Below, one piece after another: positions 12,006 to 39,980 of a stretch of 40,256 nucleotides of DNA; the first letter of the stretch is position 1, and the number at the start of each line of letters is the position of its first letter. The notes under the pieces were generated by a model that searched no databases, was not told where the DNA came from, and was given only the letters and a program-made list of their open reading frames with translations. A program made the translations under genes and the position numbers. Origin of the DNA: a virus; IMG/VR virus record IMGVR_UViG_3300025896_000060, positions 1 through 40,256 of that record. One strand, given 5' to 3'.

Positions 12006-14383
12006 GAGATACGCTTTGCTCTATCGTGGTAGAAACCTTCCCATTCGAGGGAGGTAATGAACATGGGTAGGTGAGAATCCGCAACAATTTCAATCTCTGT
12101 CTTGGTGTTCTCAGCCTGGACAGGGAACTTAAATCTCCCAGTCTCAATGGCCACAGCACCTATGATATTGTTCACAGAGCCAAGGACTCGGCCTGAGAAA
12201 ATGTAGGTGTAAGTATCACGACCCAGCGGAGTAACATTCACTCTGAAGTAACCTGTACGGTCATAGTTCAGAGCACCATTACGAAGCTGAAGCCTACCCT
12301 CTAGAACAGCTACCACGGCATTCCCTACGTTCTTCCTAATGAGGAGCGTTGAAGGGACATAGCGTGACGCAAAGTTTCTTCCAAAGTAATACTTGGTAGT
12401 TCTATGGTCACCAGATACAGTGATAGTAGTGGCTGAGGCAAACTCAAAGGGAAGCATGTATCCCTCAGGGTTGCCGAGGTTAGTATTACCACCTCTAACC
12501 ACAAGGGTATGTGTATCCGATGTAGCAGCAGAGAATGGGATTGTGATAGTTGTGACATCCGTTCCTGCATCGTAGGATTCTGAGCATTGAGCTTCAGTAA
12601 CCCTTCTATCCAGGTACGTGATATAGTCTGAGTCAGTATCAGCAGCACCGGACTCAACAGCAATACGTTCCATGTAGCAGCCATCAGATCTCTGGATAAC
12701 CAGATAGAGGGTGCTCTCAATGAACTCAGCTGCGAGTAAAGTATCAGTTGATGGGAAGGTCCACTTGGACCATGAAGATTGTAGCTTAGTATTACCTTGC
12801 CAGTAGAACTTATAGACATAGACAGAGTTAACATCACCGCTAGTCAGGAGGCAGATTAAGTCCTCGTTGGTAGCAGCGGCCATGCTGAATACACCGGCAG
12901 GGATGTAGCGTGGAACGTGGGATGTAATCTCAGAAGCGTCATTGACTTGTAGATCATTGTCAGTGAAGTATTCTAAGACCGAAGCCCAGGGTCCCTTGGG
13001 GGCAACAAAGTAAACATTCTTGCCTGAGCCAACAGGCTTACAATCTCTTACAGTCTCAAATTCAGTCGTTGGTGTAATTGATACCGTTCGTGGGGCCAGA
13101 ATATCTGAGCCAGTCAGAATGAACTGAGTCTGGTCAGAGTTAAGAAGAAGGCTCTCATTGTACGGAATGGCGCTACGAAGGATTGATACCTTAACGTGAG
13201 CAGCCGCAACATCAATGGGGTCATCATCTAGCAACTGGGTAGCAGTAGCTTGGAAGAACCTGAAGAAGTCCCCAGCGCCGGACATAATCACATTCTCATT
13301 CGACAGGAAACCTAAGCGGTTCTTGAAGAAGAATGTATCTGTGATTTTGTTTCCAATGAAGGAGGGGTTAGGGTTGCTATCTAGGTCACCCGCATTGCGA
13401 TCAACCCAGGTAGCTCTCTTGAAAGTAAAGTCACCACTAGATTCCCGCACGAGGATGTGGGGCATTGTAGCTGGGTTTAACTTATATACAATACCAGGGG
13501 CTACAGCTTCAGCCCATACACCGTTATATGTACCACCTGAGTTATTCGATGTAACGAACTTCACATAGTAGTCATCAACATTGGACTCTACAGAACCAAC
13601 AATCTTAACATTGAAGTTCTCAATAGCCTTATAGGGCAAGTCAGAGAATGACTGTACGCTATCCTTGATGACGCTCATGGCTGTACCGCCAAGGCCATCC
13701 TCAGCAACAATAGAGAAATCTCCAGAGGTCTTGGTGAGGTAGATAACTGAACCTAAGTTCGTGATTGTGTAGCTACCACCAATCGCTGTAACCAAGTCGT
13801 TGTACAACTCATTAGCAATATAGGCAGTGTCAATGTTGGCCGTGTGGGAAGCCGAAGAACCATCAGGGGTTTGATATGAGGCTACAGTTGAGCCACCGAT
13901 CTTGATGGTGTAGGTCTTACCATAGTTCCCTTGCTGGACCCAGATAAGAGCTTCCTTTGGACGGGCCGTAGAAGTGGCCGCATCCATAGCAGCAGTAATC
14001 TCTTGGTTCACTACGAAGGTATAATCAGCAACAGTAAGGCATTTAAATTTGGTCTTTGGACTTGAGCAGTTTAGATAACCTTTGCCATCTGGGAAGGCTA
14101 CCGTCTTAGCTGTGCCATCAATATCATAAACAAACAAATCATCATCCACGATCACTACTTGGTAGCGTTCAGTGGTATCACGATTAATTGTGTGCAGCTT
14201 AGCAGATGTGAAGTTACTTGAACTAAACTTAGCTATGTGTTTGGTCGGGGGCCTACGCGAGAGAGCATCAACTGTACTTGAGTAGCAGTTCTCTTGCTCT
14301 TCAGCTTGGCTTGCCAAACGGAGATTGTAAGGCTGTTGGCTTACGCCATTAATTAAATTTGGGATTGTATTAGATACCAGCAT
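12002..14383 (-). CDS. Tail tubular protein B (T7 gp12-like nozzle)
   Basis: 793 residues from the ATG at 14383; T7 gp12 has 794. The start was chosen because MLVSNTIPNLINGVSQQP is the conserved gp12 opening, while the longer frame to 14503 lies inside gp11. The N-terminus continues with a RRP motif (SRRPPTKHI) typical of this family. The protein forms the tail nozzle below the adaptor ring. It overlaps the gp11-like gene by 14 bases and ends in an ATGA overlap with the gp13-like gene. The ribosome binding site is weak, suggesting coupling to gp11. Confidence 0.95.
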   Translation of the reverse strand: MLVSNTIPNLINGVSQQPYNLRLASQAEEQENCYSSTVDALSRRPPTKHIAKFSSSNFTSAKLHTINRDTTERYQVVIVDDDLFVYDIDGTAKTVAFPDGKGYLNCSSPKTKFKCLTVADYTFVVNQEITAAMDAATSTARPKEALIWVQQGNYGKTYTIKIGGSTVASYQTPDGSSASHTANIDTAYIANELYNDLVTAIGGSYTITNLGSVIYLTKTSGDFSIVAEDGLGGTAMSVIKDSVQSFSDLPYKAIENFNVKIVGSVESNVDDYYVKFVTSNNSGGTYNGVWAEAVAPGIVYKLNPATMPHILVRESSGDFTFKRATWVDRNAGDLDSNPNPSFIGNKITDTFFFKNRLGFLSNENVIMSGAGDFFRFFQATATQLLDDDPIDVAAAHVKVSILRSAIPYNESLLLNSDQTQFILTGSDILAPRTVSITPTTEFETVRDCKPVGSGKNVYFVAPKGPWASVLEYFTDNDLQVNDASEITSHVPRYIPAGVFSMAAATNEDLICLLTSGDVNSVYVYKFYWQGNTKLQSSWSKWTFPSTDTLLAAEFIESTLYLVIQRSDGCYMERIAVESGAADTDSDYITYLDRRVTEAQCSESYDAGTDVTTITIPFSAATSDTHTLVVRGGNTNLGNPEGYMLPFEFASATTITVSGDHRTTKYYFGRNFASRYVPSTLLIRKNVGNAVVAVLEGRLQLRNGALNYDRTGYFRVNVTPLGRDTYTYIFSGRVLGSVNNIIGAVAIETGRFKFPVQAENTKTEIEIVADSHLPMFITSLEWEGFYHDRAKRIS

Positions 14384-14975
14384 ACGAGCGCCTATCCAGA
14401 GTTCTATAAACAGTATAAGAACCTGACAGGACATTACCGTTGCGCTGACGAGCAGCTTCTTTCCTGAAGATGGTACGAGCATTGCGCTCTTCCTCTTCAC
14501 CATAGCCAGTCAGTTCTTGTGAACCAATGCGGCGTTGTTGGAAGATACGAGCAGCTCTCATGGCGATATACGCCTTGGCAGCTTCAGGTAAATCCGAGAA
14601 TGGAAGAAGGATAATCAGCTCAGCTTTAATATCATAATCAAAGGAGAGAGTGTGGTTGTCAGCGTCATAGACGAGCAGCCCACGTTGGACCAGGTTCTTG
14701 TCTCTATCACTGCCATAGGGCATGAAGGAGATTGTATTGCTAGGGAGGTTAATGCGGTACGGAGCAGTAGGCTCTCGCACCAAGGCATAATCCTTTAGAG
14801 TATTGAAGTACCAGCCAGCCATTTGAATGGACCGACTAACTTCAGTGAGAACACTCTTAGCTGTGGCAACATCTTCCAAGCCGGAAGCGTCCAAGCTATT
14901 CACTGGGCTTTCGCCAATAGCTCCGAGCATAAGGTTCACTGCTTCTAATTCAGTGGTAGGGGTAACAGAAGTCAT
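14370..14975 (-). CDS. Tail tubular protein A (T7 gp11-like adaptor)
   Basis: 201 residues from the ATG at 14975, against 196 in T7 gp11. AAAGG lies a few bases upstream of this ATG; the extra 20 residues of the longer frame come from the terminator region. The family features are visible: ELEAVNLMLGAIGESPV near the N-terminus and RIFQQRRIGSQEL in the C-terminal half. It forms the dodecameric adaptor between connector and nozzle. It is the first gene after the capsid terminator, so it depends on readthrough, as in T7. Confidence 0.95.
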   Translation of the reverse strand: MTSVTPTTELEAVNLMLGAIGESPVNSLDASGLEDVATAKSVLTEVSRSIQMAGWYFNTLKDYALVREPTAPYRINLPSNTISFMPYGSDRDKNLVQRGLLVYDADNHTLSFDYDIKAELIILLPFSDLPEAAKAYIAMRAARIFQQRRIGSQELTGYGEEEERNARTIFRKEAARQRNGNVLSGSYTVYRTLDRRSYAGI

Positions 14976-29331: not shown

Positions 29332-29407
29332 TGGTTGCGGGAGTCAGACTCGAACTGACGACCTTCAGGGTATGAGCCTGACGAGCTACCAACTGCTCCA
29401 TCCCGCA
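29332..29407 (-). tRNA. tRNA-Met(CAT), initiator-like
   Basis: A 76-base cloverleaf with encoded CCA. Acceptor TGCGGGA/TCCCGCA, D-stem GAGC/GCTC, anticodon stem TCAGG/CCTGA with loop CTCATAC, variable AGGTC and T-stem GTCAG/CTGAC with loop TTCGAGT all pair fully. The D-stem A11-U24 pair and the AGGTC variable region are those of bacterial initiator tRNA. However, positions 1-72 form a weak T-A pair instead of a mismatch, and the three anticodon-stem GC pairs are reduced to A-T, G-C, G-C. It may initiate, elongate or be read as a lysidine tRNA-Ile. It lies between lysozyme and endonuclease I. Confidence 0.95.
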
Positions 29408-30789: not shown

Positions 30790-33324
30790 TTAGGCAAAGG
30801 CATAGTAGCTGTCTTTGACTAGGTTAAGGTCCAGGGTCCCCATAGAGGGGGCTGGGGGTATCTTATCGTGCTCTGTGGCTGGCAATGCAGCTAGGGCCTC
30901 ATCCCTGAAGTCCTCGAAGACATTGCACGTTGAGTACATCTCTACGAAGGCTTCTCGTACAGTGGAGAACAGAGCATCTGTATCTGCTGCACACGTACCA
31001 AAGCTATCATGCACCAGTGCCATGCTGTTGATGCCAGCTTCCTTAGCCCGTACAACGGTGAGCATCAGGTGACTAGCATCCATGGAGTGAATGAAGTTAG
31101 GTGAGATACCATTCGCTTGGCGTACCTTATCCAGCTCAGTGGTTGCCTGAGCGTACCCCAAGCGCATATCCAGATTACCAGCGAGGGTAGTACGGATGCG
31201 GTGGAGCTTCATCTGCCTCACAGCTTGCAACACCATGAAGTTAGTTGGAGTGTGCCACACAACGGGAAGGTTGTGATTAGCCAGCACACGAGCAACTGTC
31301 TTCAACCAGTTCATCCCTTCAGCCGCCTTAACGACAACTTGAGGGAGAGCTTGGGAGATTGCATTGGCCATGAAGGATGCAGCCTCAGTCCCATCATTCT
31401 CAAACGGGAAGTCATTAGGCTTCTCCATCTTAGCGGGACGCATGGTGTCCTCCATGAGCTGCTCACGGAAGCCATAGTTAGCTGAGCCATACGGATACGT
31501 CATCACAGCTCGTTTGACACGCTTGCGGGTGATACCGAACTTCAACCATTGCTGAGCTACTTCTTCAGTGGCCCTTGCCTGGGTGTATTCAATGCACTTG
31601 TCAGCAACCTTCTGGTAGATGTCCTGAGGCTTATCTGAGGGGACCAGGTTGACAGCAGCGCCACCAACTTCATCTCTCAGTGCCATGGAGTAGTTCTGAA
31701 TGCCTGAGCACGAACCATCCAGAGCGATAGGGATATGAGAAACAAAGCTCACGCCTTGCTCCATGTACCCTGCCCACTCAAAGCAGAAGGCTAGGAACTG
31801 CCAGGGCTTGTCGATGGTCACATCCTCCACAGCTTTTGTTGTGGGGTTTATCCAGCCACCTTCAACCCACCCACGATTAGCAAATGGGTCTTCAGCGATT
31901 GCTTTGATTTGTGCTTCGTTAGCATCCACCCAGTCCACACGGTCTTGGAATGAAACCTTGTCCACTCCAGCCATGTTGGCACCTTGGATAGCCAGCCACT
32001 TCACGCCATCTTCACCAATGGGTTTCCCCTCAGCGAAGTGCATAAGTGACTTCATAAGGTCAGGGCCTTGAGGGTTGAACGAAGGCACTGCATAAACTCT
32101 GCCTCTGAAGTCCAACTGGTACGGAAAGTAAATTCGCTCGAAGGCACCATACTTCTCAGCGGTTGAGATGCACTGTTGTATCTGGAGGCGTTTGGATTGG
32201 TTCTGGACATTGAAAGCGTAAGTGTCCCGTGCATCCTTCTTCCACTTGAAGTGTCTATCTTTATCGTAGCCTGGGAGCGAGGTGTCAAAACACACATGGT
32301 TTTTACGCTCGGCTTGCACCATGCTTCCGCAAGATGGACACAGAGGTAATGGAACGTTCTCCCTGCTAGGGAGTGGCGACCAAGTTGCTGACTGTTCCCA
32401 TAGAGTTCTAGCAACGTCTAGAGTCCTTTGGTTGATAGCCCAGGGAACATTCTGCATAGTGTTAATGGCATCGTAAACGATGGGCATGTCATGGTTCTTC
32501 AGCTCCTCTAGGTATCCGCTAAGGTGGGTTTTCACCAGCGTCAGGCGTTTCACATAACGGGTCAAGTAGCCACCACCACGGGGGCCAGTCCAGGGGAGAG
32601 GTTCTACAATCATAGGCTCATACTTAGGCTGCATCAGAGCAATGAAGCTGTTACGTGCATTGACCCAATCTGTGACTTCACTCTTAGGGTGGATGTACAG
32701 CTCAGTGTTGTGCTTACCGTTCTGCTGCTTCACGATGTCAAACATGCCAGTCTTATCAACAATGGCATCAATGACACGGGAGCCTACAGAGACCTTCTCA
32801 GTGAGGGACCAGCTCTTCCACTCCACTCCACTTTCCTGAGACAGGAACTTCACGAGGTAGGCTTTGCGGCTGTAAGCCACGCGAGTCTTAGCCTTGCGAA
32901 CAAGATGGAAATAGAGGTTGGAGTTCTCAGCTTCAAGCGCACGGAAGCGACACTCATCTTCGATGTAGTTGCCAATCTCCAGGGCCAGCTTAGGAAGCGT
33001 CTGTCCAAACTGAAGAGCGTTGAGGGTGCAGCGTAGGCCAAGGAAGGCTGATACGTTGGCGGGTAGTTGGTCCAGCAACTTCATGTGCGTGGCTCTGCGC
33101 CCAGCGCCACCCTTCTTCGCCTTATCAATCATCTCTTGGATGCCTTCACCAACGCTCTTAACGTGCTTGTTGATTAGCTCCTGAGCTGGGGCCGTGTTGG
33201 ACTCTTGGCCCTTTTGTCTTGCCTTGACCACAGCACCTTCGTACTGCTTCTGACCCATTACGGTCATCTGCTTCTCAAGCTCAATCTGCTGAGCGTACAA
33301 ATCGGTTTCGTCTGGTGTATCCAT
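30790..33324 (-). CDS. Single-subunit DNA-directed RNA polymerase (T7 gp1-like)
   Basis: 844 residues from the ATG at 33324, five bases after GTGAGG; the ATG nine codons upstream has no ribosome binding site. T7 RNAP has 883. The palm motif is PIALDGSCSGIQNYS (catalytic Asp), the O-helix region KRAVMTYPYGSANYGFREQ (Lys and Tyr that select NTPs) and the second Asp motif MALVHDSFGTCAAD. The C-terminus is YYAFA, like T7's FAFA foot. It would transcribe from the CAATTAGACCACCATAGAA promoters and be restrained by lysozyme. Confidence 0.98.
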   Translation of the reverse strand: MDTPDETDLYAQQIELEKQMTVMGQKQYEGAVVKARQKGQESNTAPAQELINKHVKSVGEGIQEMIDKAKKGGAGRRATHMKLLDQLPANVSAFLGLRCTLNALQFGQTLPKLALEIGNYIEDECRFRALEAENSNLYFHLVRKAKTRVAYSRKAYLVKFLSQESGVEWKSWSLTEKVSVGSRVIDAIVDKTGMFDIVKQQNGKHNTELYIHPKSEVTDWVNARNSFIALMQPKYEPMIVEPLPWTGPRGGGYLTRYVKRLTLVKTHLSGYLEELKNHDMPIVYDAINTMQNVPWAINQRTLDVARTLWEQSATWSPLPSRENVPLPLCPSCGSMVQAERKNHVCFDTSLPGYDKDRHFKWKKDARDTYAFNVQNQSKRLQIQQCISTAEKYGAFERIYFPYQLDFRGRVYAVPSFNPQGPDLMKSLMHFAEGKPIGEDGVKWLAIQGANMAGVDKVSFQDRVDWVDANEAQIKAIAEDPFANRGWVEGGWINPTTKAVEDVTIDKPWQFLAFCFEWAGYMEQGVSFVSHIPIALDGSCSGIQNYSMALRDEVGGAAVNLVPSDKPQDIYQKVADKCIEYTQARATEEVAQQWLKFGITRKRVKRAVMTYPYGSANYGFREQLMEDTMRPAKMEKPNDFPFENDGTEAASFMANAISQALPQVVVKAAEGMNWLKTVARVLANHNLPVVWHTPTNFMVLQAVRQMKLHRIRTTLAGNLDMRLGYAQATTELDKVRQANGISPNFIHSMDASHLMLTVVRAKEAGINSMALVHDSFGTCAADTDALFSTVREAFVEMYSTCNVFEDFRDEALAALPATEHDKIPPAPSMGTLDLNLVKDSYYAFA

Positions 33325-33380
33325 GGGGGCCTCACGGTGGAATGGTTGCATCAGTGGATAGGTGTAGGCAAATAAAAAGG

Positions 33381-33593
33381 TTAGCCAGTAATGGACTTAG
33401 GTAAGATAGGCTTCAGCTCTACATTGTAGAAGGTGTTGCGAGTACGCACAGCCTCTACCATAGTTGTGCGGATGGTAGTGCCATCTCGCCAGCGTACATC
33501 TCCGTAAACTTCACCTACCAAACATCCGGTGATGTCGATGTAGGCATTCTTGATGGTTGAGGGCAATCCATCGTGGCCCATGGCTCTCTGCAT
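33381..33593 (-). CDS. Small protein between integrase and RNA polymerase
   Basis: 70 residues, beta-rich (YIDITGCLVGEVYGDVRWRDG), with no TM. GGAGG lies seven bases upstream and the start overlaps the integrase stop (TAATG), so it is translated with the integrase. An excisionase-like or recombination directionality role could be imagined from position, but the fold does not resemble a known excisionase. Confidence 0.75.
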   Translation of the reverse strand: MQRAMGHDGLPSTIKNAYIDITGCLVGEVYGDVRWRDGTTIRTTMVEAVRTRNTFYNVELKPILPKSITG

Positions 33594-34597
33594 TATGCGG
33601 CCTCCAATAAGTCACGAGCCAGGATTAGCTCAGTGGGTACTAGGTGACTATAACGCATAGTCTCCTCGATTCGTCTATGCCCCAACCACTTCTGGACAAG
33701 GGCAATGTTCTTGGTCTCCTTCAGGAGCCTCGTAGCGCAATCATGGCGACAAGCATGGGGGACAAACTCATCGTCCTCCTGTAAGCCCAGGGCTACCTTT
33801 ATCTCATTCCATCTATCCTCAATGCGATTGCTCGTGGCGAACTCAAAGTTGCCCTGGCGAGAGAACGCAGCGAAAGCTCTATTGGTGAGGGGGATGGAGC
33901 GCGGTGTGTCGGACTTAGTATCCCATAAATGGAGAAGTGGTGCATCATCAGTGAGAGTGATGTCACTGGCTTTCGCCTTACGAACCTCTGAACATCTCGC
34001 GCCTGTGTCCAGTAGGACCACAAAGAAGTCAGCCCATTGCTGACGGTTGGTATTGTTATAAAATCCCGCAATGGTTCCTCTCTCTGTGTCTGTGAAGAAA
34101 CGGGTACGGGTAGTCCTGACACGGAGGAACTCAATGTCAGGGCGCTTGGCTATGATGTCCTTACGCTCCGCATAGCGGAACATCTTGGATAGCATAGCGA
34201 GGCGCTTATTGATTGTAGCTGGGGCGAAGCCTTGAGCCTGTTGGGTAACAGTGAAGTGCTCCACATCAGCGGTAGTAATGTCAGCAGCTAGGCGCTCTTT
34301 CCCGAAGTGGGAGAGAATGACCTTAGCCACTGACATAACACCAGCCCTATGCTCGGCCTTCTGCCAGTAACGGCTGAAGCAAGCATCGAAGAGAGTGGAT
34401 AGGCTGTTTCCGTTGCCACTATGTAAGCGGTCAAAGGCCCTCTTCTGTACTGCGGGTTCTCGGCCAGCTAGAAGGTCAGCTTTAATCTGAGCTTCCATGG
34501 CTAGTGCAGATGTACGATCAGGGGCTTGCGCTCTAACCCGTTTGCCCTTGTGTTGCACATCTACCTGATAACCATTTGAACGAGGCTTCACAGTCAT
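33593..34597 (-). CDS. int: Tyrosine recombinase / phage integrase
   Basis: 334 residues from the ATG at 34597, which has AGGTGG five bases upstream; a GTG three codons earlier is the alternative. Arm-type N-terminal domain (about 1-55), core-binding domain (about 65-155) and catalytic domain with all key residues: Arg201 (GARCSEV), Lys228, His281-x-x-Arg284 (HACRH), His307 (LGHRR) and Tyr316 (MRYSH). The enzyme appears intact. It would insert and excise the genome at an att site. Its position just upstream of RNA polymerase matches temperate-type cyanophage and pelagiphage podoviruses. Confidence 0.96.
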   Translation of the reverse strand: MTVKPRSNGYQVDVQHKGKRVRAQAPDRTSALAMEAQIKADLLAGREPAVQKRAFDRLHSGNGNSLSTLFDACFSRYWQKAEHRAGVMSVAKVILSHFGKERLAADITTADVEHFTVTQQAQGFAPATINKRLAMLSKMFRYAERKDIIAKRPDIEFLRVRTTRTRFFTDTERGTIAGFYNNTNRQQWADFFVVLLDTGARCSEVRKAKASDITLTDDAPLLHLWDTKSDTPRSIPLTNRAFAAFSRQGNFEFATSNRIEDRWNEIKVALGLQEDDEFVPHACRHDCATRLLKETKNIALVQKWLGHRRIEETMRYSHLVPTELILARDLLEAA

Positions 34598-34598
34598 A

Positions 34599-34940
34599 TT
34601 AACCACCTATCATGTGGGTTACTTTTTCATACAACTGAACTCCACGAGGAGTCAGTGTGTGTACCTTGCGGCGCAGTTCCATGGGGTCTGGGACACCCTC
34701 TATTAGGGCAAATCCCTTTTCCTTATGGCGGTTGAGTTTAGAGAATACAGCTACGTTCCTACTGGCCGAGCTTTCTGCCTGGTCAGTCATAGCGGCTATC
34801 TGAACTAGGGATACCCCTGGGTTCAACGCTACTGTAAGAAATGTAACTACCTGTTGCACAGGCATCTCCGGGTCCAACCTTCTAAACTCCTCCAAGCAAC
34901 GCAACAGTTTACGAGCTTGGTTTGTTTTTATACTGCTCAT
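34599..34940 (-). CDS. Winged-helix DNA-binding regulator (MarR-like)
   Basis: 113 residues. A winged helix-turn-helix is visible: VSLVQIAAMTDQAESSASRN as the HTH (about 44-63) and KGFALIEGVPDPMELRRKV as the wing (about 75-93), ending LTPRGVQLYEKV. The ribosome binding site AGGGAGG is very good. The integrase ATG follows its stop by one base. It probably controls the lysogeny operon, perhaps its own promoter at 34969-34999. It might also replace a CI-type repressor, but no such test is possible here. Confidence 0.88.
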   Translation of the reverse strand: MSSIKTNQARKLLRCLEEFRRLDPEMPVQQVVTFLTVALNPGVSLVQIAAMTDQAESSASRNVAVFSKLNRHKEKGFALIEGVPDPMELRRKVHTLTPRGVQLYEKVTHMIGG

Positions 34941-35376: not shown

Positions 35377-35946
35377 TCAACCTCCGTTAGTAAGTGTAAT
35401 GCAGATGGTGAATACCAAGGCTGTGAAGCCGAAGAGGTGCTCACCCCACATGACGGTCTTCTGCTCGTCCACTTTGCGACCAATGAGGTAACAGAGGGCG
35501 TGAGCTACGCCGAAGTTAAGGGCGTATATCGGGAGGTAGTAGAAGGAACCTGTGGCCCAGCATAGAACAGCAGAGAGAATACCTCCCCGCAAGATGCCTA
35601 TGTAAACCATGGCTAGTGTACAACGCTCAGTCTCATCACGGCTAGGCAGGATTGGACCTAACCAATCTCTGTCATTGGTCTCTGTGTTGGGGTTGAATCC
35701 ACCAACAGCAAAGTACCTACCATGGGAGAACCACTTCCACGAGAATGCCGCAATGACTGAAGCCAGAGCAGCTATGTGATTGTAGTCTGAGTTCACCAAC
35801 ACTGCTACACCCACAACAAGCGACCAGGAGAGCCAAGCACCCGTAGTTCCTAACTCTTTCCCGAAGACTTTCTTTCCATCTCTGCGATACAGCCAACCGC
35901 TGAGCAGGATGAGAAGGATATTTATGATTGCGAGTAAAGGTGTCAT
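35377..35946 (-). CDS. Multi-pass membrane protein
   Basis: 189 residues with about five or six hydrophobic segments (near 2-19, 37-51, 57-72, 110-130, 132-150, 168-186) and a hydrophilic loop rich in Asn, Asp and Arg (about 80-105). No transport or enzyme motif is visible. The start is an ATGA overlap with the preceding gene. As part of an early membrane-protein cluster it may act in superinfection exclusion or host takeover, which is inference. Confidence 0.78.
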   Translation of the reverse strand: MTPLLAIINILLILLSGWLYRRDGKKVFGKELGTTGAWLSWSLVVGVAVLVNSDYNHIAALASVIAAFSWKWFSHGRYFAVGGFNPNTETNDRDWLGPILPSRDETERCTLAMVYIGILRGGILSAVLCWATGSFYYLPIYALNFGVAHALCYLIGRKVDEQKTVMWGEHLFGFTALVFTICITLTNGG

Positions 35947-36218
35947 TGTAAGCCATCCCGATTTACTTCCAGTTCATCCAGAGCGTCTGAGTAGTTGACC
36001 TCGAAGGGTGTAAGGTGACGGTTCAAGTCCAAGAGGGCTTGCCGTTCCTTGTCGATGAATGCTTGGGTGAACTTCCCTCTGTATTCATCTTCTTCAAAGT
36101 CATTGCCACACTCACAGTCTTTAAACAGAGGAGATAAGGCAACACACATTATTATAAACATCACTAGGAAGCCAACCATCATGGCTAGGCACTGCATGAT
36201 TAGTAAGAACAAGTCCAT
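35943..36218 (-). CDS. Membrane-anchored acidic protein
   Basis: 91 residues: an N-terminal hydrophobic helix (about 3-30, LLIMQCLAMMVGFLVMF included), then CECGNDFEEDEY and a charged helical C-terminal domain. A good ribosome binding site (GAGGAG) precedes it. The topology would place the acidic domain on one side of the inner membrane. No family recognised. Confidence 0.75.
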   Translation of the reverse strand: MDLFLLIMQCLAMMVGFLVMFIIMCVALSPLFKDCECGNDFEEDEYRGKFTQAFIDKERQALLDLNRHLTPFEVNYSDALDELEVNRDGLQ

Positions 36219-36246
36219 TGTAGTCTCCTCTGTTTTCTAAGGTTGT

Positions 36247-36447
36247 TTACTTGTCGGCCAACACCAGTATTACGCAAAGCAATACGATGAAGAACACAGC
36301 AAGGGCGAAGCCAATCCACAGTGGGCTAAGAACCCATAGCCACGACCATGCAATGTAGCCTGTTAGTTTCAGGCCGATGAAGAGCAAGGTCAGAAGGCCA
36401 GCGAAGCTAGGACCAGCATAGACGTTTGTTTTATTTTGGGTTGCCAT
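36247..36447 (-). CDS. Transmembrane Fragile-X-F-type protein
   Basis: 66 residues, two hydrophobic helices with the signature FIGLKLTGYIAWSWLWVLSP followed by LWIGFAL. This matches the small phage/bacterial proteins annotated as TMEM185/Fragile-X-F type, which are membrane proteins of unknown role. It overlaps the RNA-ligase-like gene by 17 bases and has AGGAG six bases before its ATG. Confidence 0.85.
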   Translation of the reverse strand: MATQNKTNVYAGPSFAGLLTLLFIGLKLTGYIAWSWLWVLSPLWIGFALAVFFIVLLCVILVLADK

Positions 36448-36988
36448 TGGCTACTCCTAACGATTTAGGCTTCTCATCATCCTTCAAGGTTTTCTTGTAG
36501 AGCTGATTAGATGCCGTGTGGAAGATGACTATGCCTTCAGGGTCCATGAACCCAGGGTTGGCATAACTACCGAGGTCCTTCAGCTCATTCATGATGCCAC
36601 CCAGAATTTCATCTGATAGCGGACCACGATACAGCTCAGGGACAACCCAGCAGCATTCGGGGATTGGGTGTTCCAGCCAGCGCGTAGTGTTGAATAGTGA
36701 GAACTTCTTCTCATCCATTCCATACCCACGTTGGATGCCCTTACCCCACCACTCGCCAAAGTGTTGGCCTGGGCCTAACAGTAGCAAGTCTTTCTCGTTG
36801 GCTTGGACCCACTTAGCGAAACCGTAGTTGTCGTCTTCAGGGGTAATCCAGCGAGTACGAGAACCAGCGAAAACTTTACCGTCATCTGTGATAAAGATTT
36901 GTGCGTTGGTCCCATCTAGTTTCTCCGTGACGATTACATCACGAGAGTATCTGGCAATCTTGGGGAATGCCTTGAACTCTGGTTGCAT
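36431..36988 (-). CDS. Compact RNA ligase-like nucleotidyltransferase
   Basis: 185 residues containing the covalent nucleotidyltransferase core: motif I EKLDGTN with nucleophile Lys23, GSRTRW at about 42-47, FGEWWGKG at about 77-84 (motif IIIa region), KFSLFN near 95-100, motif IV EGIVIF at 151-156 and motif V YKKTL at 164-168. The KxDGTN form fits the Rnl2-like RNA ligases better than T7 DNA ligase. No OB-fold or Rnl2 C-terminal domain is present. It could seal nicked RNA (for example cleaved tRNA) or substitute for the missing gene 1.3 DNA ligase. GGAGG lies five bases upstream. Confidence 0.85.
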   Translation of the reverse strand: MQPEFKAFPKIARYSRDVIVTEKLDGTNAQIFITDDGKVFAGSRTRWITPEDDNYGFAKWVQANEKDLLLLGPGQHFGEWWGKGIQRGYGMDEKKFSLFNTTRWLEHPIPECCWVVPELYRGPLSDEILGGIMNELKDLGSYANPGFMDPEGIVIFHTASNQLYKKTLKDDEKPKSLGVANGNPK

Positions 36989-37073
36989 TTGGCCTCCAGT
37001 GAACCAGCCAACACCAGCCTAGGAATAGGAGGATGAAGGTGGCGATTGATAAGTTGATTGCTGTGTCTGCCAT
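36939..37073 (-). CDS. Possible 44-residue single-TM peptide
   Basis: Its ATG overlaps the stop of the nucleotidyltransferase gene (TGATG), and its last 17 codons overlap the ligase-like gene in another frame. One hydrophobic helix (NLSIATFILLFLGWCWLV) sits near the N-terminus. It could anchor or couple expression of the two RNA enzymes. The ribosome binding site is weak, so reinitiation would be needed. Confidence 0.5.
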   Translation of the reverse strand: MADTAINLSIATFILLFLGWCWLVHWRPNATRVQGIPQDCQILS

Positions 37074-38032
37074 CAGAACATCCTGTCGATGACTTCAACC
37101 AGATAAACCATGTCTATCTTGGTAGAGTCCTTCGCTTTCAATTCTGAGATGAGCTGACTGAAGTAAGCCACATCAACACCTGTGAGCTGCTCTTGGAGAA
37201 CCTTGGGGTCCGACAAGTCTAGCGATTGGCATTGGGTAACCATCTTCAATATCTGACCAGCGTTGATGCTGTACCCACGCTTCACAAACTTGCGAATGCG
37301 AATGAGGGAGCAGATGGGGTAACGTGAACCAATATACTTCAGCTCACGAGAGAGCAGGGCTTCTAAGGCTTGAGGCCGTAGGACCAGCTCGTTACCTTGA
37401 TAGGTCCAGTAGCTTGTGCAATGAACAAAATCAAAGTTCTCATGGATGACATCAGGCTCACCCGTAAAGCGCAGGATGATTTGAACATCGTTGCTCAGGG
37501 TGATTGCGTTACTGGACACAAACAGAGGGCGGTAAGGCTTACCCTTGACCTTCTTGGTCTTGGTAGCTTCTCGCTCTTCATCGTGTGTCTCTTGGATGGT
37601 GCCAGGGTCATCCATGACATCACCAACATAAGCACCAGCTTCTTCAGCAGGGCGACCCTCGAAGTAACGGTACTCTTCTTCAGCCCCAGCTTCACTGGCG
37701 ATACCAGCGGACTTGACGTACACCTGAATGCGGTCATCCACACGGCGAACTTCAATCTTGCATGAGATACCAGATTCCTTCTGAGGCTGGAAGCGACCAA
37801 CGTAGTAACGGGCTACAGCTTCAGCGGTCTCAGGTGTTCTGAAGTAAATGTCGAAGTCGTTGACCTCTTCACCCAACAGCATGGAAGCGATAGCACCACC
37901 AGTTACGATGACATCTCGCTTCACAAGGTCTTGAACAGCAGTGTCTTCGATGGATGCAATCCACTCTTCAACCTTGCGCTTCAAGATGCCCTTGATTTGT
38001 GGAGCACGAAGCCCCTTTTGAACATCAGTCAT
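37073..38032 (-). CDS. Nucleotidyltransferase-fold protein
   Basis: 319 residues. GGAIASMLLG (about 45-54) followed by DFDIYF (Asp59, Asp61) is the glycine-serine plus double-aspartate signature of the polymerase-beta nucleotidyltransferase fold seen in CCA-adding enzymes and MenT/AbiEii-type toxins. A third acidic site may be ENFDFVHC (about 199-206). The C-terminal third is helical, with SLIRIRKFVKRGYSIN like the basic RNA-binding part of tRNA nucleotidyltransferases. Substrate unknown. AAGGAG precedes the start, which overlaps the previous gene by eight bases. Confidence 0.8.
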   Translation of the reverse strand: MTDVQKGLRAPQIKGILKRKVEEWIASIEDTAVQDLVKRDVIVTGGAIASMLLGEEVNDFDIYFRTPETAEAVARYYVGRFQPQKESGISCKIEVRRVDDRIQVYVKSAGIASEAGAEEEYRYFEGRPAEEAGAYVGDVMDDPGTIQETHDEEREATKTKKVKGKPYRPLFVSSNAITLSNDVQIILRFTGEPDVIHENFDFVHCTSYWTYQGNELVLRPQALEALLSRELKYIGSRYPICSLIRIRKFVKRGYSINAGQILKMVTQCQSLDLSDPKVLQEQLTGVDVAYFSQLISELKAKDSTKIDMVYLVEVIDRMF

Positions 38033-38240
38033 TATGTAATCTCCTTGGTACGAAGCCCTGTGCAGGGACAGTCGCTACCTTTTCGTGCTGGTCATTGGGA
38101 GGCCGATGAGGTTTTCCTAGGTCAACAAACACATCGTATTCGAGGGTCTGTTGTATTCCCGCTATCACTACTCGCGCAGTGAAGCTCCTGGTGGGACGTT
38201 GAGGGTCCTTTAAGAGGAGCAGGGGTCCTAATAGTGCCAT
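38025..38240 (-). CDS. Small early hypothetical protein
   Basis: 71 residues, a Leu-rich opening (MALLGPLLLLKDPQRP), a beta-like middle (SFTARVVIAGIQQTLEYDVFV) and a basic end. AAGGAGG five bases upstream is among the best ribosome binding sites in the window. Eight-base overlap with the nucleotidyltransferase gene suggests coupled expression. No family recognised. Confidence 0.72.
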   Translation of the reverse strand: MALLGPLLLLKDPQRPTRSFTARVVIAGIQQTLEYDVFVDLGKPHRPPNDQHEKVATVPAQGFVPRRLHND

Positions 38241-38259
38241 ATCGGCCTCCTTGTTTGAC

Positions 38260-39153
38260 TTACTTCTTCGGTTGAATGTTCACCACAGTAGCCGACACAA
38301 CTTTGAAGGCGTTGTGAGGCTCACGGCGTTGCCACTCAGCGGCTTGGTTTTCAGCAGCTTCCTTCGTGCGGAAGTCAGGGCAATAACCGTGACTGCAAAG
38401 GACTTGGTGCTTGCTAGCAACTTCTACTGTTACCTCACCACGGACTAGGCTGTTAGGCCCAGTGCGATAGCCAGCACGGTACTCATCACCGTTCTTATTG
38501 TAGTAACCACCAGACATCGGAGATTTGAACTCGCCCGTTTCCATATCCAGTTTCTTACTCTGGAATGCAGTACCAGCTTCCGTGGTACGCGAGACAGTTA
38601 GCTCAAGAATATCGCCAGAAACAGTGCGATACCGACCACCAACGCGAAAGGGGGACACCTCCACTGGTTTCTTGATGTCCCACGAGTGGTCATCACCATC
38701 ATTCCAGTAAGTAGCCACAGCATCACCACGACGAAGGGCACGAGTATGGAGCTTATTGGTCTCCAGAGTGCCTTCCTTATGGACGAGGATGTAACCACGG
38801 TCATCTGGTCCAGCAATTACCTGGATTGTGAAGCCACCACGGGTCTTGTGAACTGTACCAACTGAGAGGTTGATAGTCTTGGTGTCAACCAGAAGTTCTT
38901 CCAATGACCATTCTTCTTTGAAGACCACGTTACCTGAAGCCGCCAAAACACCCCAGTTATCTAAGTAACCGATTGAGCGTGAACGCTTGTCTTCCTTTGC
39001 GGCCTGTAGGCTCGAATAGAAGTAAGCACGGAAGGCTGGCTGGCCACTGATTGTCTCTGGCTTGTCGTCAATCTTAGCGTACACACCGCTAGTGCGAGTA
39101 CGGTACACACCACCAGCAACGGCTGGCACATTCACTCCACAATAACCACACAT
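38260..39153 (-). CDS. Early protein with repeated small beta modules (A)
   Basis: 297 residues from the ATG at 39153, preceded by AAGGAGAGAGAACT; the longer frame to 39198 starts in a terminator. It opens MCGYCGVNVP and contains several GxxYRTxxG-type units: GGVYRTRTSG, VGTVHKTRGG and VGGRYRTVSGDILELT. These suggest small SH3-like barrels. A second Cys/His pair occurs in CSHGYCPDF. The neighbour at 39254-39970 shares the N-terminus type and modules, so the two look like diverged duplicates. Function unknown; the early position suggests host takeover. Confidence 0.8.
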   Translation of the reverse strand: MCGYCGVNVPAVAGGVYRTRTSGVYAKIDDKPETISGQPAFRAYFYSSLQAAKEDKRSRSIGYLDNWGVLAASGNVVFKEEWSLEELLVDTKTINLSVGTVHKTRGGFTIQVIAGPDDRGYILVHKEGTLETNKLHTRALRRGDAVATYWNDGDDHSWDIKKPVEVSPFRVGGRYRTVSGDILELTVSRTTEAGTAFQSKKLDMETGEFKSPMSGGYYNKNGDEYRAGYRTGPNSLVRGEVTVEVASKHQVLCSHGYCPDFRTKEAAENQAAEWQRREPHNAFKVVSATVVNIQPKK

Positions 39154-39186
39154 AGTTCTCTCTCCTTGTTTAGTTTTGATAAAAGA

Positions 39187-39222
39187 AAAGGGAGCCACCC
39201 GACCACCGGATGAACCCCCTTT
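39187..39222 (-). terminator. Intrinsic-type terminator between the paired early genes
   Basis: On the minus strand AAAGGG...CATCCG, loop GTGGT, CGGGTG...CCCTTT, followed by TCTTTTAT. The outer A/T-rich and inner GC stems plus the T-rich tail fit a Rho-independent terminator. It would reduce early transcription between the two related genes. Confidence 0.75.
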
Positions 39223-39253
39223 GATAGTTCTCTCCCTGTCATAGGAAAGAGAA

Positions 39254-39970
39254 TTAGTTTGGCAGTGACATCAACTCTTCGACCTTCACTTCCACAGCCT
39301 TCAACACCTCGAAGGGTGTCCCAGCGTAATGGCTTCGGCCCTGAGCTTCAGAGTCGAACGTCTGTTGTGACATGATGACTTCGCCAGTCTTCTTCAGACG
39401 CAACACCAAGACATAACGCTTGAGGCTTACACGAGTGAGTGGTTTAGGTGCCATCATGCGAATCGCACCACGATTGAATGGGAAGTAAGCAACCTTGATG
39501 GGCTTAGGCAACACACGAACGATGTCACGGGTGTCTTCCTCGCGGTGGTTAAGGAACCGACCATCTGCTGTCCACTTCTCACCATAACCAAAGTCCACAC
39601 CTAAGGCTCTTTGCCCTGGATGGTTCTTGCCATGGATTACGTATGACTCAAAATCGTTAGGACCCTTGCGAGGTTCAATCTTGGTGATGTCAACTTTGCG
39701 ACCATCACGTAGAACAACAGTGTCCCCAACTTCGACAGAAAGCGGAGCACGGATGCGCGTGTGTAAGTTCATCTTGTGGAACCCACCTTGCGGTAGATAG
39801 TCACCACCTTGATACCAAATACAATCAGCACCCTTAGCTCTCCCATCAATGTACCGACCTTGGTACTGTGTTGGGCTAAGCATCTTGGTAATCTCTACCG
39901 TATCACCATCATAGTCTTTGTATCGCTGGCCCACTACTAAGCGGACCTCACCACCGCATGAACGGCACAT
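39254..39970 (-). CDS. Early protein with repeated small beta modules (B)
   Basis: 238 residues from the ATG at 39970, six bases after AAGGAG; a GTG one codon earlier is possible. It opens MCRSCGGEV and has VGQRYKDYDGDTVEIT and VGDTVVLRDGRKVDIT, the same unit type as in the gene at 38260-39153. It ends with a charged domain (VLVLRLKKTGEVIMSQQTF). Basic overall, no TM. The Cys pair could bind zinc together with other residues or a partner. Not recognised as any named family. Confidence 0.8.
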   Translation of the reverse strand: MCRSCGGEVRLVVGQRYKDYDGDTVEITKMLSPTQYQGRYIDGRAKGADCIWYQGGDYLPQGGFHKMNLHTRIRAPLSVEVGDTVVLRDGRKVDITKIEPRKGPNDFESYVIHGKNHPGQRALGVDFGYGEKWTADGRFLNHREEDTRDIVRVLPKPIKVAYFPFNRGAIRMMAPKPLTRVSLKRYVLVLRLKKTGEVIMSQQTFDSEAQGRSHYAGTPFEVLKAVEVKVEELMSLPN

Positions 39971-39980
39971 CACTCTCTCC

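Follow-up and report, generated by a model that had tools for sequence, protein, structure and literature searches.

Does a nucleotidyltransferase (NTase) gene that runs into a compact ligase gene on the same strand of a phage genome mark a two-enzyme system for RNA repair? The question is raised by a 40,256-base viral record, analysed here over its full length (the window). A preliminary description had placed an NTase frame, a 44-aa frame and a ligase frame in overlapping series, and had read GG...DFD in the first product and KLDGTN, EGIVIF and YKKTL in the last. The frames were confirmed at their coordinates on the minus strand and the motifs in the translations (Table 1).

Table 1 Features of the window discussed in the text.
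Feature	Coordinates	Strand	Evidence or remark
Complete tRNA-Met (CAT) gene, CCA encoded	29332..29407	-	ARAGORN; RF00005 66.8 bits
Tyrosine integrase	33593..34606	-	PF00589 64.7 bits; phrog_1 E 8.6e-44
Transcriptional regulator adjoining integrase	34599..34940	-	phrog_9665 E 1.5e-26
66-aa TM protein, phrog_1374, overlaps ligase end	36247..36447	-	profile match
Compact Rnl2-like ATP-dependent ligase core (predicted), 185 aa	36431..36988	-	PF09414, phrog_548
Hydrophobic (TM) ORF bridging NTase and ligase, 44 aa	36939..37073	-	maximum Kyte-Doolittle 2.07
NTase, Pol-beta superfamily (predicted), 319 aa, phrog_4400	37073..38032	-	phrog_4400 E 1.4e-65
71-aa ORF upstream of NTase	38025..38240	-	overlaps NTase start by 8 nt

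Judged by its gene content, the window phage is a temperate T7-like virus. Its RNA polymerase (RNAP), primase/helicase, DNA polymerase, capsid, connector and terminase match T7-like families, and the RNAP is 40-43% identical to those of BB8, LUZ100 and YIMV22061. In these temperate T7-like phages the integrase gene (annotated as such in two of them) is followed by the RNAP gene and then by the replication genes, and in LUZ100 a MarR-family regulator precedes the integrase. Regulator, integrase and RNAP follow each other in the window (33593-34940 and 30790-33351) in the order seen in LUZ100. An IMG/VR search for close relatives by RNAP returned only four distant loci. The tRNA-Met gene of the window sits between amidase and endonuclease genes, appears initiator-like by eye and resembles the tRNA-Met genes of other phages.

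The gene run is tightly packed. Base 37073 is common to the NTase stop and the start of the 44-aa ORF, which shares 50 nt with the ligase; a further 17 nt are common to the ligase and the 66-aa TM ORF. Shine-Dalgarno-like sequences are good for the NTase, the ligase and the 66-aa ORF and weak for the 44-aa ORF. From 35377 to 39973, genes overlap at five of the eight junctions; overlap being usual here, it carries little weight as a sign of joint function, and we discarded it as a mark of such function. When the region was shuffled 500 times (mononucleotide), the longest open frame reached 223 codons (mean 111), and chance therefore does not account for the 319-aa frame; the 185-aa frame is accepted as real because of its homology, its length alone being insufficient. 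The 44-aa TM ORF was rejected as a conserved linker: a small hydrophobic ORF adjoins the NTase in 3 of 74 homologous loci, a frequency not above that next to other genes. The 71-aa ORF gave no match in NCBIfam and PADLOC.

The ligase scored 44.4 bits against PF09414, above the gathering cut-off of 27, and matched phrog_548, a phage RNA ligase family, at E 5.3e-32; profile comparison connected it to T4 Rnl2 (E 4.4e-6). Its motifs lie at EKLDGTN (position 22), HFGEWWG (76), PEGIVIF (150) and LYKKTL (163). Across 20 homologues K23, R44, E79, F96/F99, E151 and K165 are invariant, and motifs I, Ia, III, IIIa and IV are intact. Motif V of Rnl2-type ligases is defined as KxK; in the window protein K165 is followed at position +2 by T167. 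An AF2 model (pLDDT 88) retrieved RNA ligases first in Foldseek, with T4 Rnl2 at the top and DNA ligases lower. The protein thus shares with T4 Rnl2 the KxDGTN, GSRT, FGE and PEG motifs and the nucleotidyltransferase fold, and differs from it by the threonine in place of the second motif V lysine and by its size. T4 Rnl2 has 334 residues, whereas the window ligase ends at residue 185, without the C-terminal substrate-binding domain, and reaches 14.3 bits against TIGR02307 (cut-off 197). In T4 Rnl2 that domain comprises residues 244-329 and binds substrate (PMC4599027). DpRNL, the divergent RNA ligase 2 of Diplonema papillatum, has 203 as its last residue and a much reduced C-terminal region (PMC4599027); it is compact like the window ligase, but it is eukaryotic and known by modelling, and we liken the two by description only. 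Similarly compact relatives are common in viral contigs and occur in phages of Caulobacter, Rhizobium and Mycobacterium. From profiles and model alike, we conclude that the 185-aa protein is an Rnl2-like RNA ligase core.

The NTase belongs to phrog_4400, which is assigned no function in PHROGs and on which our literature search found no paper. Relatives occur in at least 314 viral contigs and in 31 loci of bacterial and archaeal genome assemblies. The protein carries TGG-x13-DFD at residues 44-61, and an alignment of 20 homologues showed T44/G45/G46, D59, D61, D201 and about 40 other columns to be invariant, including the C-terminal residue F319; D201 is a candidate third catalytic carboxylate. 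The AF2 model is of moderate confidence (pLDDT 72.7); confidence is low for an insertion in the middle and for the C-terminus. Its best 26 Foldseek matches in the PDB were E. coli PcnB and class II CCA-adding enzymes (top E 2.8e-4), at TM-scores of 0.3-0.4, the similarity spanning part of the fold. Likeness to the class II CCA/PcnB group (PF01743) thus extends to the Pol-beta head fold and the GG-x-DxD signature. At the level of sequence the group stands apart: PF01743 scored 14.2 bits (cut-off 23), and among 49 homologous IMG/VR contigs it gave weak matches in 19 (E up to 0.1) and none above the cut-off. Membership in the CCA-enzyme family at this level was rejected, as hhalign against the CCA profile aligned 18 columns only, confined to the GG-DxD stretch (probability 4.5%). 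In a by-eye alignment, YPxCSxxRxRKF, with an invariant R245, occupies the site where the EDxxR nucleotide-recognition motif is expected. The NTase showed no match to a PolyA_pol_RNAbd or HD domain, and phmmer and hmmsearch against PDB sequences yielded nothing useful. Guided by the model, we classify the protein as a Pol-beta-type nucleotidyltransferase with a predicted CCA/PAP-like fold. The enzyme identities given in the preliminary description, a CCA/PAP-like Pol-beta fold and an Rnl2-like ligase, are therefore borne out in fold prediction (PcnB/CCA for the one, T4 Rnl2 first for the other) and in conserved catalytic residues, the aspartates D59 and D61 among them.

Whether the two genes form a unit was addressed by co-occurrence. 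Among 50 records with a compact ligase, one held an NTase homologue, and a divergent one; conversely, 5 of 50 NTase records held any PF09414 ligase. In a wider set of 124 ligase loci, two had an NTase at most 10 kb away; one of these two, a second phage contig (L337), carries a core-family NTase 6.9 kb from the ligase on the same strand. Neither family has a constant neighbour, and both genes are absent from the stretches of LUZ100, BB8 and YIMV22061 that we examined. Rare co-occurrence, one of the outcomes that the preliminary description had set against its own proposal, leads us to reject a conserved two-gene cassette and leaves a dedicated NTase and ligase system unsupported. It follows from this rarity, and from the stretches of the relatives without the genes, that the pair entered a variable region, either jointly or one gene at a time, and is not conserved as a unit. 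On present sequence comparisons, the NTase and the ligase are separately travelling gene families and not a fixed two-gene system.

The NTase family nonetheless keeps company with RNA-repair genes in some phages. In Rhizobium phage RHph_I1_18 (L225, 995-6049), genes for a CCA enzyme, Thg1, an Rnl1-type ligase, an AAA_33 kinase, a 48-aa ORF and an NTase homologue (39.5% identity) are followed by tRNA-Lys and tRNA-Gln, so that the NTase is the last gene of a tight RNA-repair operon. There the true CCA enzyme scores 78 bits against PF01743 and the NTase 14 bits; because a genuine CCA enzyme coexists with it, the NTase would have a job other than CCA addition. The 50 NTase records contain 13 RNA ligase or RlaP genes, of which 7 lay at most 7 kb from the NTase against 2.3 expected (p about 0.002), a test that assumes random placement though phage genomes are modular, with cut-offs set after looking and records incompletely deduplicated; for DNA methylase genes, taken as the control, the figure was 1 of 8 against 2.0 expected. 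Across a wider set of 114 NTase loci (some duplicates), an RNA ligase lay within 10 kb in eight and RlaP in five. KASIA has a HAD_PNKP protein 3.5 kb from its NTase. These associations indicate that the NTase family is tied to RNA repair in a minority of phages. The repair role suggested in the preliminary description accordingly gains support for the NTase family, through the RHph_I1_18 operon and the proximity to RNA ligase and RlaP genes, and not for a dedicated NTase/compact-ligase cassette. In another NTase locus (L116, 6961-7479), the ORF directly after the NTase is without a Pfam match and looks by eye like a calcineurin-type phosphoesterase.

T4-type tRNA repair pairs a kinase/phosphatase with an RNA ligase. 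In the window, no homologue of a kinase, phosphatase, RlaP or Thg1 was found with the profiles tested, which a divergent enzyme could escape. For kinase and PNKP, two phage kinase/PNKP proteins were each turned into a single-sequence profile and run against the window ORFs; none matched, in agreement with the earlier remark that no polynucleotide kinase was visible. AAA_33 exceeded its cut-off in 1 of the 50 ligase records. As no healing enzyme was found in the window, ends bearing a 5'-OH or cyclic phosphate would not be healable by phage enzymes.

Among the closest precedents is the pairing of RlaP with RNA ligases in jumbo phages, described by Iyer and colleagues. There, RlaP NTases (PF10127) lie beside ATP-dependent RNA ligases and are proposed to restore lost nucleotides before ligation, CCA enzymes forming a second type (PMC7824862). 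The window resembles this arrangement in having a Pol-beta NTase beside an RNA ligase. It differs in that the genes are not stably linked and the NTase fold is closer to PcnB/CCA; PF10127 gave no match to the NTase at E 1, and an RlaP profile built here found nothing in the window.

We favour, at a confidence somewhat short of even, the reading that the locus encodes two RNA-end enzymes, accessory early genes that possibly cooperate in RNA repair as proposed for RlaP and RNA ligase. Our observations cover the fold, the catalytic residues, the order of the genes and the tendency of NTase-family genes to lie near RNA-repair genes; for substrate, reaction direction, cooperation and purpose, we infer the following course. 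The NTase, whose fold is akin to that of poly(A) polymerase and CCA-adding enzymes, would transfer nucleotides without a template, and it probably restores nucleotides at RNA 3' ends, likeliest of tRNAs, after cuts by host defence nucleases. The ligase would self-adenylate on K23 and then join 5'-phosphate and 3'-OH RNA ends. The two are probably co-transcribed and could act in sequence, filling in and then sealing, as proposed for the jumbo-phage pair. A bolder version, unlikely in our estimate, is that phrog_4400 represents an uncharacterised kind of phage polymerase for RNA repair, separate from both RlaP and the CCA enzymes, that refills nuclease-cut RNAs and partners whichever RNA ligase its phage has; the window pair would then be this system reduced to two genes, its ligase having a single domain. 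If phrog_4400 is tied to RNA repair, a widespread phage gene would acquire a testable role and the ways in which phages may survive tRNA-cutting defences would be extended; enzymologists would also take an interest in an RNA ligase of 185 aa, if it works.

The main rival to cooperative repair holds that the two are unrelated accessory genes, chance neighbours in a variable early region, each acting alone, the ligase on an RNA substrate of its own and the NTase elsewhere, without a joint pathway. It is a serious possibility, if a somewhat doubtful one. The near-absence of co-occurrence, the want of a constant neighbour for either family, the uninformative overlaps and the LUZ100, BB8 and YIMV22061 stretches without both genes all suit it, while the second contig with both families on one strand argues for a connection, as does the way NTase-family genes cluster with RlaP and other RNA ligases. 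Another rival, in our view improbable, makes the NTase a tool of host takeover: like MenT toxins, it would extend the 3' ends of host tRNAs or other RNAs and so block them, and the ligase would be incidental. The place of the NTase in the early region would fit. Klebsiella phage fHe-Kpn01, moreover, encodes a small CCA-like nucleotidyltransferase, Gp22, whose expression in E. coli is toxic (PMC7291057), Gp22 and phrog_4400 being compared by description only. Against this, MenT is absent from the top 26 Foldseek matches, all of them PcnB or CCA enzymes, and one homologue sits in the RHph_I1_18 repair operon. No toxin family matched the NTase in Pfam, NCBIfam or PADLOC, so that the MenT/AbiEii alternative raised earlier found no counterpart in sequence or predicted fold.

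A CCA-adding enzyme for the maturation or upkeep of phage tRNAs is a very unlikely identity for the NTase. It would agree with the CCA/PAP-like fold, with the annotation of the KASIA homologue as tRNA nucleotidyltransferase and with the tRNA genes, scoring above cut-off, of 25 of the 50 NTase records. Carriage is no higher than in the ligase records, however (27 of 50), and no tRNA-gene link specific to the NTase emerged. CCA is already encoded in the window tRNA-Met and in 151 of 163 tRNA genes of NTase phages, against 22 of 89 in compact-ligase phages, a contrast that host lineages may explain in part. A maturation role predicts the opposite and is therefore disfavoured, as is the CCA restoration on phage tRNAs proposed at the outset; the separate CCA enzyme of RHph_I1_18 tells against it as well. 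Least probable of all is a role for the compact ligase as a minimal DNA ligase in place of T7 gp1.3, another suggestion of the preliminary description. The window has no PF01068 DNA ligase, and DNA ligases do appear lower in the Foldseek list, but the best matches are RNA ligases and the gene lies in the accessory arm, outside the replication module. Since close relatives (LUZ100, BB8 and YIMV22061, in the stretches examined) show no annotated DNA ligase either, a gp1.3 replacement is not needed as an explanation.

Small CCA-like NTases of about 182-184 aa are known from autographiviruses, one of these phages being temperate: in vB_PaeM-G11 the gene lies beside the primase/helicase gene (ORF 22-23) (PMC7693777, PMC7291057, PMC10142737). 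These tRNA nucleotidyltransferases and the window NTase both occur in T7-like phages but differ in size, by a comparison of descriptions only. In the replication region of BB8 (L252), near 14211-14864, a CCA-enzyme profile matched weakly (E 3.6e-4) and may mark such a small autographivirus nucleotidyltransferase.
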